From an uncultured Verrucomicrobiales bacterium (GTDB lineage: Bacteria > Verrucomicrobiota > Verrucomicrobiia > Verrucomicrobiales > Akkermansiaceae), in NCBI GenBank assembly GCA_937934595.1, contig CALGZA010000019.1, forward strand, positions 1 to 64,000: 64,000 bases of DNA, in the 5' to 3' direction. Made by a program: the position numbers and the translations under genes. Of this stretch, positions 6,753 to 49,165 are shown one piece after another. Position 1 is the first letter of the stretch. Each line of letters begins with the position of its first letter. The notes beneath the pieces were generated by a model. That model was given only the letters and a program-made list of their open reading frames with translations. It was not told the DNA's origin and did no database searches.

Positions 6753-7437
6753 GCCCAATATATGAAGACACTATACCCATTAATCAATAAAAAATCTCAT
6801 CAGTGAAAGAAACTTCAGTTCACATCAGTAAACTATAGCCATATTCAATCCATAACACCAAATGATTGAACGATAAAATACAGTTTCTCCCTACAATACA
6901 GACATTCAGACTATTCACACTAACCCACAAGACTACTAAAAAATCAACCACATCACAACAAGACAACCATCAACCAAAAAAAAGTTATGTCCCATCATCA
7001 AACACCAGAAACAACCCACAACCCAGATCACCAAAACCAACACAAAGCAAAAATCCGTCGTGTTCACCTCAATAAATCACTACTCATCAGCGCCAGCATA
7101 AGCTCACTAGCCCTAGCCGCCTGCCAAGCAAGCAAAAATATAACAACACTCAGAGAAAACACCAATCAAACTGCTACAAATCTCCACAAGAAATAATACC
7201 ATTAAAATAATGATTACATAGCACCAGAAAATCAAATGAACCATAACTAGCATAGCAAACAGTAAACACACAGCAGCCTCATCAACTCACGCCAGACAAA
7301 GCGAATGCTGCAATAATAGTTTGCCAAAAAAATCAGCCTTTCCACAAAAATAGATTCCTTAAAATCTCTATGAATCCAAAACAACTATGGAGATAGCATA
7401 ATCTACCCATACATCCCCTCCCCACCCAACACTCCCC
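6753..7437. other. Long intergenic region with one possible small lipoprotein
   Basis: 685 bp between terC and the first membrane gene. Apart from the possible lipoprotein at 6987-7196, the plus strand is A- and C-rich, and its other short open frames look like the by-product of low stop-codon density. No terminator hairpin or tRNA was seen. Confidence 0.4.
6987..7196 (+). CDS. Possible small lipoprotein
   Basis: A 69-codon frame. Residues 24-47 form an exported-lipoprotein pattern: a basic stretch KIRRVHLNK, a hydrophobic core LLISASISSLALA, then a lipobox ending in AAC at about residue 46, followed by QASKNITTLREN. This resembles entericidin-like small lipoproteins. The n-region before the signal core is unusually long if the ATG at 6987 is used; no ATG, GTG or TTG lies closer. 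The mature peptide would be about 24 residues. The strong strand skew makes chance frames common here, so support is modest. Confidence 0.33.
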   Translation: MSHHQTPETTHNPDHQNQHKAKIRRVHLNKSLLISASISSLALAACQASKNITTLRENTNQTATNLHKK

Positions 7438-44438: not shown

Positions 44439-45127
44439 TTATTTATTTTTATATCCTTTAAAATTATAGAATCAACTAAGAAGCCAACCATTTACTAAAA
44501 CTAATCCAAGCATACTCAATGATCTGATCTCCAGAAAAATAAACATACTCACATCAACAGAAGATGCCTCTTAACTAACTTAATTGATAACCTAAAACTA
44601 ACCCACTAAATCAACCAGTCAAGAAACAAAAATACCGTAATCCCATATAGTTATACCATTTGAACTGTTAGAATAGATTGATAGCACAACAAGATAGCAA
44701 GAGTACCAAGAGTAGCAAGGCAAGAGGAAAGCGAATAGTGGACTATGCAACTGACGAATAACGAAGCTAATCTTGATATATTGTTTTGCACTTCAAAAAA
44801 TCAGCTCTGCTGCTGGTCCCAAATATATTGAAACTACTATCAACCCAGAATAACTGTGAAAATGGTATTAAACCTAGAGAACATATAAAAGTGCAGCTAT
44901 CCTCCTCACCATAAGAAGGCGAGAAACAACAAGCAATAAAATAGCATGTATCACGAAAAACCCAGATAAATAAATAATGCCCGCCCCTTTTCTAAATCTA
45001 AAACACTACGTAATATTAATCTCAGAACCCATCTAGATTCTCGGTTTTCTAGCTTCAGCCTAGAACGTCCAAGGACACGCTCACAGTAGTGCCCAGTTCA
45101 CTAATACCAAACTCTATACTGTAAATA
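44439..45127. other. Intergenic region carrying MITE copy 1
   Basis: 689 bp between the SASA gene (transcribed leftward from 44438) and the 3' end of the S8 protease gene. It contains the 214-bp MITE at 44654-44867. The segment 44871-45127 has a short hairpin (TTCTAG, 7-nt loop, CTAGAA near 45047-45066) but no T-run; otherwise I see no gene or terminator. Confidence 0.5.
44654..44867. mobile_element. MITE copy 1 (214 bp)
   Basis: Non-coding element bounded by TACCATTT at the left and its exact complement AAATGGTA at the right, and flanked by the 3-bp target duplication TTA (44651-44653 and 44868-44870). The inverted repeats continue imperfectly to 31 bp (23 of 31 matching by my alignment, ending in TTGATAG / CTATCAA). 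It matches copy 2 at 48797-49001 over its whole length in the same orientation, with 9 extra bases (a repeated CAAGAGTA-type unit near 44700). Its G-over-C composition is opposite to the host DNA. No coding capacity, so it needs a transposase supplied elsewhere; TNA duplications are typical of the IS1031 group of IS5. Confidence 0.88.
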
Positions 45128-48100
45128 TTATGGATTCGTGAAATCTAACTTCACTCGGTGGAACAGCTGTGTGCCTTGGACCCTAGTAAATTTTATCCTA
45201 ACTTCTACTTTATCTACCCCAACGCCGTAAAAATCATTAATCGCATTTATGGTGAAACTATTATCCCCTGATGTCCTAACCCAACTTTTCAGATCCGTAT
45301 CGTGCTGACAATAAAAGTCGGCACTCGCATCATTAAGGACAGCATCATTGCGTCGATAACTGAATACATACTCATCCCCTTCAACTTTCGCCGTAGGCAT
45401 CATTCCCGTCATGTCCGAGTCCGGACTATCCGCGCCCAGCGCCCATGCCAATCCATTACTAACTCCATCATTATTCTTATCACCCGTCCGTGCCACCCCA
45501 CCAGACCAACCATCATATGCCCCTGATGCCAACGGCGTAAACGTAACCTGATCTACCCAGCCCGCATCTGCTCCAGTAGAAACAGAAAAATCCTTAACAT
45601 AGCTCCACTTCACAACATTCACCCCCCCACCCAAGACAATGCTTCTCTCTGTCCAACCAACCTCCCCAGATATCTTACCCAGCAAACCAGTCTGCTCAAT
45701 GCCATTAACCGAAAAAATCAAAAAATCGTAAGTCGCTTCAGATGACACTTTCCACTTAAAAGTTAGAGTTCCAGGACCAGTAATATTAGTCTGTATATAA
45801 TTGGACTCGTTGTTGTTGATATCTCCACTTTGGGCTGCATCTTTAGTATCAAATGTCACCGCACTCTGGTAAAACCACTCAGTATTACCTCCTGTAGACC
45901 AAATTAATGCCTCCGCATCCACCGCATTAGCCAAAGTCGGCTTGGCTACTATAGAGAAAAATGCATCACTGAAATCTTGCACCGCCGGATTATTCAAACT
46001 GCTGATCCTAATAGAAAAATTATTACCTAAAGTTATACCTGCTGGTATCTGCCACGTGTATACTCCATCATTCGGCTCGCTAACAGAGATCACTGAACGA
46101 AAATTACCTCCTTGGTATAAATCAATCCTCACATTTCCCTGAACAGTTGCCGCCCATGTAATGTTATGCGCCACTCCAGCCACCCATGACTCGCCATTGT
46201 TCGGTGACCTAACTAGTATAGAATCCGGCTCAGACCGTGAACCTGAAATAATAAGACCGTAATCCTGACTGTTATTGGTAAGCGCACCACTATAGGTAAC
46301 CTCCACCCTCCACTTTCCATTCTGACCTGGATTTGCGATATTGACCTGCTCCACGTTATCTCGCGTATTAGTTGCTCCATTGTTTATCCCCATTGTAGCA
46401 TTCTCATTCATAGACGCTACGGTCCACCTGCCTACAAATGGCATCACATAAGGATAATACTCTGTCCCATCCGGAGCTATTAACTTAAGATCTAGATTAT
46501 TGACCAATTTAGCCGTCCTTAAGTCATGAGATCCAGTAGAACTCCCCGCAGGATCAGTCCACGCGATCGTTGCCTTAATAGGAGAACTCCCATCCCAGAA
46601 AAACTCAGTCACACTAGTACTGCTGTTTGTAGTGACAGACTTCTCTGATATCGCCTCCAGCCTTGGCTGTGAATGATACGCCCTAATTAAATCAACTGCC
46701 GTCCTAACATTAATATGCCCCCAGCCAAAACGGTAATCTGGACCAGGATTCCCTAAATCATCAGCTGTATGTATCAGCAAAGACTTCAACGTACTTGCTA
46801 GCATAGATTTATTGAAAAGCCTATTATACTGATCAACAACAAGGGCCGCAGAACCACATGCACTCGGGCTCGCCATACTGGTTCCTGACGTACTGAAGTA
46901 ACTAGTATCAGAAGTGATCCCCGTAGAAGTTAACCCCACTCCATTTGCCACCAAGTCAGGCTTGATCCGCCCATCATCAGTCGGCCCTACAGAGGAAAAA
47001 AAAGCTAATGAAGCCTTACTCAAATCACGAGCTCCTGAATCCACAGCATCATTAAGCGCTCCAATTGTAACCAAATTTTTACATATCCCATCTCCTGAAA
47101 TATTGTCAAATCCTCCTCTATAAGTTCCATCATTCTGAGGATGAATAGATGAATTATACACCACATCAACGGTACTACCCGACGAAAGCCTGACGTTATT
47201 TCCATTTCGTGGTCCATCATTACCATCATTACCCGCTGCCCAAAAAGGTAATAAATACTTAGAATTATAAAGCAGCTGGTCCATGGCCCGTTGCCACCCC
47301 CCATAACGTCCAAAATCATCCTCAAACGCATTCTGATCAGCACCCGAACCATACCAAGTCCAGCGTGAAGTTTTATTGTTATAAGACCATCCTCCAATTG
47401 GCCCATAACTGTGATTAGATAAATACAGCCTGTTTCCTAGTTGATTATTTGCAGTAGCCGCCGCTGCTGTCATCTCACTATTATCGTTACCCCAGTCACG
47501 TGAATGGATCAAAACCGCATTCGCCATCCCCCTGGCAGTAGCACTGACACCTTGAGCTCCTACTGTGCCCATAACATGCATCGCATGCGAACTCAGACTC
47601 GCAGAATCTAAGTTCGTGATCCGGTTCCCCTGCACAAACTCCCTGTGAGTTGCCAGTCCGCTTCCCTCATCCCACACACCAACAATTTGACCCTGACCAT
47701 CAAGACCATAGGGTGTCTCCCACAGAATATTCGCTCCGCTCGATATAGCAGCATTCAAGTTCTTGGTCTCCCTATAAATGGGATCATTACCTTCAAAACC
47801 AACTATCTCCATAGAGCCGCCGCCTTTCTTATGGATGCGCATAGCTAAACCTCGTAACCTTGCCTTCTCTGCTACCCTCTCTTTTTCTGCTTCTTCTATT
47901 GCACGTATCCTTGCTACAGCTTTCGCTCTATCTTCTGGTTTCGAGAAATCAAGTGCGGGATCATCATGAACAGCTGAGATTTGTTCAGCAGCTGCATCGT
48001 CAGTATCCAATACAGGCAGAGCCTCATTAAATGTTAGCTCACTTACTATCGCTGGTTCTGCAGTCCTTTTTGCCACCCCTCCATGCGCTTCTGGTTGAAC

Positions 48101-48355
48101 CTTTAGCTCATCATCATGACTCAGCAAGCTCTCCTCCGTTTTCTTATCATCAGAATTAACTTCTATCGCATTTTCTGAACCAGAATCAGTAACCCCACTA
48201 TTAATTACCAAGTCATCGCCAAGATCATAAGACTTTGCCTTTCCACTAGTATGCGCTGTATCACTTCCTTCATTGGGCTTTAATGAATAAATAAACACCG
48301 CCAGCATTAAAATCACCAAGGAGCTTAAGATAGTGAGTAAGTATTTAAGTTTCAT
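45128..48355 (-). CDS. Large subtilisin-family (S8) serine protease, exported
   Basis: 1075 residues. Hydrophobic leader or anchor 5-25, an acidic Ser/Glu-rich region to about 110, a charged helical stretch (AVARIRAIEEAEKERVAEKA), then the S8 domain. Catalytic residues are visible: Asp in IVGVWDEGSG (about 225), His in SSHAMHVMGTVG (about 257), Ser in STSGTSMASPSACG (about 492). C-terminal parts: a P-domain-like beta-sandwich (about 590-690), a Kre9/KNH-like module (SPNNGESWVAGVAHNITW) and a jelly-roll (about 800-960). Probably cell-surface or secreted. The gene lies between two MITEs and has weaker strand skew than its neighbours, suggesting acquisition as a unit. Confidence 0.92.
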   Translation of the reverse strand: MKLKYLLTILSSLVILMLAVFIYSLKPNEGSDTAHTSGKAKSYDLGDDLVINSGVTDSGSENAIEVNSDDKKTEESLLSHDDELKVQPEAHGGVAKRTAEPAIVSELTFNEALPVLDTDDAAAEQISAVHDDPALDFSKPEDRAKAVARIRAIEEAEKERVAEKARLRGLAMRIHKKGGGSMEIVGFEGNDPIYRETKNLNAAISSGANILWETPYGLDGQGQIVGVWDEGSGLATHREFVQGNRITNLDSASLSSHAMHVMGTVGAQGVSATARGMANAVLIHSRDWGNDNSEMTAAAATANNQLGNRLYLSNHSYGPIGGWSYNNKTSRWTWYGSGADQNAFEDDFGRYGGWQRAMDQLLYNSKYLLPFWAAGNDGNDGPRNGNNVRLSSGSTVDVVYNSSIHPQNDGTYRGGFDNISGDGICKNLVTIGALNDAVDSGARDLSKASLAFFSSVGPTDDGRIKPDLVANGVGLTSTGITSDTSYFSTSGTSMASPSACGSAALVVDQYNRLFNKSMLASTLKSLLIHTADDLGNPGPDYRFGWGHINVRTAVDLIRAYHSQPRLEAISEKSVTTNSSTSVTEFFWDGSSPIKATIAWTDPAGSSTGSHDLRTAKLVNNLDLKLIAPDGTEYYPYVMPFVGRWTVASMNENATMGINNGATNTRDNVEQVNIANPGQNGKWRVEVTYSGALTNNSQDYGLIISGSRSEPDSILVRSPNNGESWVAGVAHNITWAATVQGNVRIDLYQGGNFRSVISVSEPNDGVYTWQIPAGITLGNNFSIRISSLNNPAVQDFSDAFFSIVAKPTLANAVDAEALIWSTGGNTEWFYQSAVTFDTKDAAQSGDINNNESNYIQTNITGPGTLTFKWKVSSEATYDFLIFSVNGIEQTGLLGKISGEVGWTERSIVLGGGVNVVKWSYVKDFSVSTGADAGWVDQVTFTPLASGAYDGWSGGVARTGDKNNDGVSNGLAWALGADSPDSDMTGMMPTAKVEGDEYVFSYRRNDAVLNDASADFYCQHDTDLKSWVRTSGDNSFTINAINDFYGVGVDKVEVRIKFTRVQGTQLFHRVKLDFTNP

Positions 48356-48584
48356 ATGAAAAATTGAGTAAAATTTTATGCACTAATTCACTAAAGACCC
48401 TCTATGATCTCAGCCAATAAGACTAACATGCATCATACATATATTATAGTATATTAGATTGTTATGTATTATTCAGAATACTATTGTGACTCTTTTTGTC
48501 AACGTAATTCCTCTCCAGAAACAGCCTCTTAGCCGATTTTTGATGACCTCCATTACAAAATAATCCCTCCAAGTTATAGCAATT

Positions 48585-48604
48585 ATTGTATTTACAAATA
48601 CAAT
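48585..48604. promoter_or_regulatory. 20-bp palindrome, possible operator upstream of the S8 protease
   Basis: ATTGTATTT, AC, AAATACAAT: two perfect 9-bp arms around a 2-bp centre, 230 bp upstream of the protease start. Its symmetry resembles a dimeric repressor site; a transcript hairpin is the alternative. Confidence 0.3.
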
Positions 48605-48796
48605 ACTCCCCTTTGTAAGCAAGGCTCAGCCTCTGATAAGACGTAAACGATATTTAGACAACAGATGAAAAACTGGCCACCAAAATAATCCTAAATTTAA
48701 TATAAAAATAAATCTCACCAGACTATTCAAACATCCTATTCACCAAATAATCTATCCACCAAGAAATACTCACTCCCATAATCCACCAGTCAGTAA

Positions 48797-49001
48797 TACC
48801 ATTTGAACCGTTACAATGGATTGATAGCACAACAAGATAGCAAGAGTAGCAAGGCAAGAGGAAAGCGAATAGTGGACTATGCAACTGACGATTAACGAAG
48901 CTAATCTTGATAGATTGTTTTGCACTTCAAAAAATCAGCTCTGCTGCTGTTCCCAAATGTATTAAAACTACTATCAACCCAGAATAACTTTGAAAATGGT
49001 A
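48797..49001. mobile_element. MITE copy 2 (205 bp)
   Basis: Second copy of the element at 44654-44867, in the same orientation, bounded by TACCATTT and AAATGGTA and flanked by the target duplication TAA (48794-48796 and 49002-49004). It differs from copy 1 by scattered substitutions and by lacking one 9-base unit. The differing target triplets (TTA and TAA, both TNA) show two independent insertions rather than duplication of a flanking segment. Confidence 0.88.
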
Positions 49002-49165
49002 TAATCTCACAACTTTGAGGCTTTAAAAACAAACCATCCACTAGCAAATAAAAAAAATTACCCCTAAAAGCAAAGCATAAAGCCAACTACCAAGAAGGAG
49101 CCGCTAATGAATTAACACATCAAAAACTCTCCACGGAACATTCGACCTCATAACCTCACTAGCCC

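Follow-up and report, generated by a model that had tools for sequence, protein, structure and literature searches.

A short non-coding mobile element with a covarying internal hairpin and a near-absolute strand orientation in an uncultured Verrucomicrobiales bacterium

Insertion sequences (ISs) of the IS1031 group of the IS5 family make 3-bp TNA target duplications, and duplications of this kind flank two copies of a small element in the window analysed here, a 64,000-nucleotide stretch (positions 1 to 64,000 of contig CALGZA010000019.1, assembly GCA_937934595.1) from an uncultured Verrucomicrobiales bacterium of the Akkermansiaceae. The original prediction, made from the letters of the window alone, had described the copies as miniature inverted-repeat transposable elements (MITEs) of this IS5/IS1031 type; the small non-coding element and its TNA duplications stand, but the IS5/IS1031 assignment is unproven, as we found no IS5-type transposase gene with these ends on searching the host, and sister subfamilies of the element have other ends and use 4-bp CTAG, or CTNAG, duplications. 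Prokaryotic MITEs in general are likewise short and non-coding, with terminal inverted repeats (TIRs), target duplications and many intergenic copies (PMC10969869); unlike them, the present element has no partner IS that we could find, and it differs further in carrying a covarying hairpin common to elements with unrelated ends and in its near-absolute orientation relative to the replication strand. The hairpin, and the replication-tied orientation expected for lagging-strand transposition, recall IS200/IS605 and REP/RAYT systems (PMC6006769); however, the element has TIRs and target duplications, unlike IS200/IS605, and at ~205 bp, with TIRs and a multi-part hairpin of 85 nt, it is unlike the 20–40 nt GTAG/CGTC palindrome of REP/RAYT. 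Binding of the beta sliding clamp is known for several transposase families (PMC4549789). The present case differs from the ISs of such enzymes in that it concerns one family of non-coding elements, 110 of whose 111 pieces have the same orientation relative to the C-rich strand.

Both copies in the window lie on the plus strand, copy 1 at 44654–44867 (214 bp) and copy 2 at 48797–49001 (205 bp); they are 92% identical, the extra 9 bp of copy 1 being a short tandem duplication. Each begins with TACCATTT and ends with AAATGGTA, the left end matching the reverse-complemented right end at 23 of 31 positions and closing on TTGATAG / CTATCAA, which places the 31-bp TIRs of copy 1 at 44654–44684 (plus) and 44837–44867 (minus) and those of copy 2 at 48797–48827 (plus) and 48971–49001 (minus). 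A check of the sequence gave TTA on either side of copy 1 (44651–44653 and 44868–44870) and TAA on either side of copy 2 (48794–48796 and 49002–49004). Neither copy holds an open reading frame (ORF) of at least 100 aa; with their 205 and 214 bp the copies are thus within the size limit of non-coding MITEs (<600 bp), and the 23/31 TIRs and TNA flanks supply the terminal repeats and target site duplications of that class. A structured hairpin occupies 44699–44783 of copy 1 and 48833–48917 of copy 2 (both plus strand), with scores of 82.0 and 85.4 bits against our covariance model R1. In all of these points that it had addressed, namely the positions and ends of the copies, their shared orientation, the imperfect inverted match, the two independent TNA insertions and the lack of coding capacity, the original prediction was borne out, as it was in its count of 18 G and 9 C in 44701–44760.

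A search of the host for further copies, which had been proposed as a check, yielded about 100 of them. In the host genome (G000; 3.15 Mb in 123 contigs, the window being part of contig C19), BLAST gave at least 42 scored matches to the element and further candidates that were unscored, while patterns for the core, the left end and the right end matched 72, 90 and 88 places, respectively, and reversed control patterns matched none; based on these numbers a chance origin is excluded. Running nhmmer on the stretches around all pattern places produced 115 matched pieces, some of which represent one half of a copy or a copy truncated at the end of a contig, and we therefore put the number of insertions at ~100. 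Among the 69 pieces with two flanks, 51 carry the same 3 bp on either side, TAA or TTA in most cases and TCA in some, and the identity ends there, extending to 4 bp in 1/69; the remaining 18 pairs show a one-base difference, partly TAA versus TTA, for which mutation, or recombination of one copy with another, would account. The element is a ~205-bp non-coding mobile element that inserted independently, each time with a TNA duplication. Full copies are 2–9% (median 4.4%) diverged from their consensus and carry a G-to-A-heavy spectrum of the kind left by long residence on the C-rich strand, which does not support the recent arrival that had been read from the excess of G over C.

The host copies are locked in orientation. 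With GC skew taken from 3-kb flanks, the TACCATTT strand lies on the C-rich strand in 98/98 pieces scoring above 40 bits, and with 5-kb flanks in 110/111 matched pieces; adjacent copies sharing a contig have the same versus the opposite orientation in a ratio of 43:1. The single exception, C2:15326, sits at a minus-to-plus change in GC skew, and the next copy beyond it, C2:24000, is reversed. About 6 kb from this switch (~15.4 kb on C2; L062 ~5.4 kb) there is an ORF that we take from its sequence to be mnmG/gidA, and based on this proximity together with the minus-to-plus change the switch is likely a replication origin. To the left of it the element points, 5' to 3', toward the origin, so that forks would reach its right end first. 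Twelve full copies that are less than 3% diverged are locked too, and among host copies G>A substitutions far outnumber C>T (149 versus 40; 0.053 versus 0.016 per base), as expected if all copies had long resided in the locked orientation.

Three other causes of the lock were considered and rejected. GC skew is very strong in the fetched host contigs and in the window (-0.2 to -0.55 on its plus strand), and genes in the fetched host sequence are nearly evenly divided between strands (599:556), which means that coding strand does not produce the skew; the same even division, with the mixed contexts of the genes flanking the copies (same/same 20, anti/anti 17, same/anti 28, anti/same 10), eliminates gene strand as the cause. 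A general bias of repeats fails because other host repeat families are few and of mixed orientation, with the exception of one family of five members. Finally, a model of target-sequence asymmetry predicts 65% of copies in the observed orientation (bootstrap 50–80%), far from the actual 110/111.

The 85-nt hairpin, ~36 bp from the left end of the element, emerged when the host copies were aligned with subfamilies from their genus; it has an outer and an apical stem, and its internal loops (AAGGC...GGAAGG / GACTGACG...AACGC) are conserved and rich in purines. Compensatory double changes occur in 20 of its 23 pairs and 91% of cells are paired, a level that 0/500 shuffles and no slid version approached; a second set from other genera (A3), whose alignment was fitted to the model, has 94.8% of cells paired and double changes in 21/23 pairs. 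On the element strand there are more G-U than A-C cells (35:7, 55:8 and 145:42), which assigns the fold to the TACCATTT strand, either as RNA or as single-stranded DNA. The covariance models of Rfam 15 gave no relevant match to the element or the hairpin (E<=1 and E<=0.5), and we found no description of this hairpin among the open-access papers searched, by sequence or by topic. Among host copies the mutation rate is 0.044 in the hairpin and 0.041–0.059 elsewhere; as change is equally fast inside and outside it, the hairpin is not maintained after insertion, and its conservation most likely acts on mobility (or on the source copies).

At about 7197–7401 of the window (plus strand, borders approximate) there is a weak and tentative candidate for a decayed relic, possibly very old, which starts with TAATACCATT, ends with ...AGATAGCATAA, scores 21.6 bits, has TAA at either side and is oriented as copies 1 and 2. 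Elsewhere, fresh copies directly adjoin older decayed ones (L080 8886–9282, L064 6824–7229 and L093 8516–8778), apparently through insertion at the TNA that borders the older copy at one end. The copy at L258 4081–4209 (G000 C25, ~79.6 kb) has a deviating hairpin stem (ATGATGCGGCCATCAT) and possibly represents another subfamily. Two pairs of near-identical copies with 1–3 differences (L131 26–238 and L127 26–229; L114 5 and L084 9131) have the same left flanks or are located at contig ends, which suggests recent duplication or one copy assembled twice.

The hairpin is shared far more widely than the ends. Model R1 matches 47/190 genomes and 19/43 genera of the order, many at high copy number, and a degenerate pattern of the core identified, among the matches listed, Acidobacteria, Deltaproteobacteria, Myxococcales, Sphingomonas, Aureimonas, Nitrospinota and Bacteroidota; in this cross-phylum set the loops are conserved by construction of the pattern, and the stems were free to vary. 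The elements around these hairpins are 157–222 bp long with the left end ~36 nt before the model start, and in 51/89 cross-phylum loci the left end is found 50–60 nt before AAGGC. Their terminal repeats are unrelated between subfamilies, ends having been exchanged, and their duplications are TNA, CTNAG or CTAG: a CTAG duplication adjoins TGTCCCGCGCGG, TGTAGTCCGCC and GAGACTGTTGAAAAACC, CTTAG adjoins AACCTGTTTGGATAAAA and TACTGCGTTTCACAATTACGG, TAA adjoins TACCATTTGAAGAGTG, and other types occur. Copies in genomes G052, G083 and G040 have flanks mostly matching as TNA or CTNAG. A search for the hairpin core in plasmids, phages, viral contigs and E. coli, where hosts of the element are poorly represented, gave no match. 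The element is a MITE-like member of a superfamily that is defined by its hairpin and, judged by Rfam 15 and the open-access papers searched, apparently undescribed.

The lock is near-absolute in the host and clear in two other genomes, and absent or undetectable elsewhere. In G040, a complete genome from another family of the order, 15/16 skew-measured copies obey it and 19/22 copies fit two arcs; these copies have TACCATTTGAACGG ends and TNA duplications, with TACCATTTGAA ends in common with the host element. In G083, whose copies have GAACCTG ends (GAACCTGTTTGG), 7/7 copies obey it.

Taken together, we consider it somewhat better than an even bet that the element is a non-autonomous member of the hairpin superfamily, mobilized in trans by a fork-coupled transposase of the DDE type, and that its mobility depends on the hairpin. 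A staggered-cut transposase of the DDE type, supplied in trans and recognizing the element ends, would account for the varied, matching duplications of 3 to 5 bp, which argue for this kind of insertion. The orientation lock in turn points to coupling with the fork: insertion would occur at or behind it, in one fixed orientation relative to its movement, and this mobility would require the hairpin that the TACCATTT strand forms, whether as RNA or as single-stranded DNA. By the usual reasoning from GC skew, the foldable strand is the leading-strand template. Replication-set orientation is reportedly a known phenomenon for ISs, the work of Gomez et al. 2014 being said, by its title, to show that replication and clamp binding determine the orientation of bacterial elements; it and Parks et al. 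2009 are both cited in PMC4549789. A bolder view, which we hold only tentatively and with distinctly less confidence than mobilization by a fork-coupled DDE transposase, is that these elements are not IS derivatives and form a separate cross-phylum mobile class, in which the hairpin would be recognized by the machinery, the ends would be exchangeable and the fork would dictate orientation.

Several results weigh against fork-coupled mobilization in trans, and some of them concern the lock. Fork direction in the host is inferred from GC skew, and the two-arc test is weak by itself, random arrangements equalling it in 347 (G040), 1781 (G083) and 4472 of 5000, so that the skew test carries the weight on complete genomes. 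In G150, 5/7 copies obey the lock with weak skew, neighbouring copies in G081 have the same or opposite orientation at 24:11, copies in G005, from the same genus as the host, are in mixed orientation, and loci pooled across other phyla are not significantly biased (45:32, p = 0.17), low skew weakening that test. The others concern the enzyme. Patterns of the left and right ends identified no parent element beyond MITE size in the host and its genus; no terminal pair of the TACCATTT type surrounds matches to DDE_Tnp_1 (PF01609) or DDE_Tnp_4 (PF13359); in G052, G083 and G163 no transposase carries its subfamily's own ends, which mostly pair at ~206 bp; and TIR pairs 330–4000 bp apart in all fetched loci gave no transposase-bearing element. 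The full-length autonomous IS sharing these ends, for which the original prediction had also proposed a search, was thus found neither in the host or its genus nor in the fetched loci, among genomes that are incomplete and from which the parent may have been lost. A lone long TIR pair, L405, was rejected as a parent as it consists of two small elements, and most host DDE_Tnp_1 genes are broken. On contig C1 of G005, from 748 kb to 4.14 Mb, we also noted second and third subfamilies with CAAGGTAACTG... right ends, rewritten stems, no clear lock and, in some hairpins, long insertions.

The main rival places the cause of the lock after insertion: the element would enter in both orientations, and copies with the hairpin strand on the lagging-strand template would be cut, deleted or harmful. 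In its favour, the strand on which the fold is preferred by the G-U counts above sits in the host on the C-rich strand, and the lagging-strand template thus bears the less foldable complement, an assignment of strands that comes from general knowledge of GC skew. However, there are no wrong-way survivors among the least diverged copies, G005 retains the same hairpin in both orientations, and selection of near-absolute strength would be required against a hairpin of modest stability, and we regard such selection as unlikely. Somewhat less probable again are ordinary MITEs derived from several unrelated ISs, with the hairpin as a passive hitch-hiker or as an RNA functional in the host. The size, ends, target duplications and non-coding nature all fit, and loss of a parent IS is common; but independent deletions would not be expected to leave one covarying hairpin at a constant offset between unrelated ends across phyla, and the even rate at which host copies mutate along their length speaks against each copy having a host function. 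The host does have two Y1/RAYT-type transposase genes, at C19:65287–65841, just past the window, and at C72:37981–38316, and enzymes of this kind act on hairpins and on the lagging-strand template (PMC6006769). Such genes are present in element-free genomes as well, which makes their co-occurrence with the element uninformative. Movement of the element as single-stranded DNA by a Y1 enzyme (HUH, IS200/IS605- or RAYT-like), with the hairpin as the enzyme's target and passage through the lagging-strand template producing the lock, is improbable: it would explain the lock and not the TIRs and the varied matching duplications of 3, 4 or 5 bp, as the Y1 pathway does not make target duplications.

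The copy number, the replication-strand lock and the conserved hairpin lay beyond the view of the original prediction, and the last two give the element its wider meaning. Fork-coupled insertion has a natural read-out in a non-coding element locked 110:1 to replication direction, which would also mark fork direction in draft genomes. The sharing of a hairpin among elements whose ends are unrelated would imply either that a structured nucleic acid joins the terminal repeats in cut-and-paste transposition or that a hairpin parasite recruits different transposases. As these elements are common in several phyla, they suggest a widespread and little-known kind of DNA parasite linked to the replication fork.

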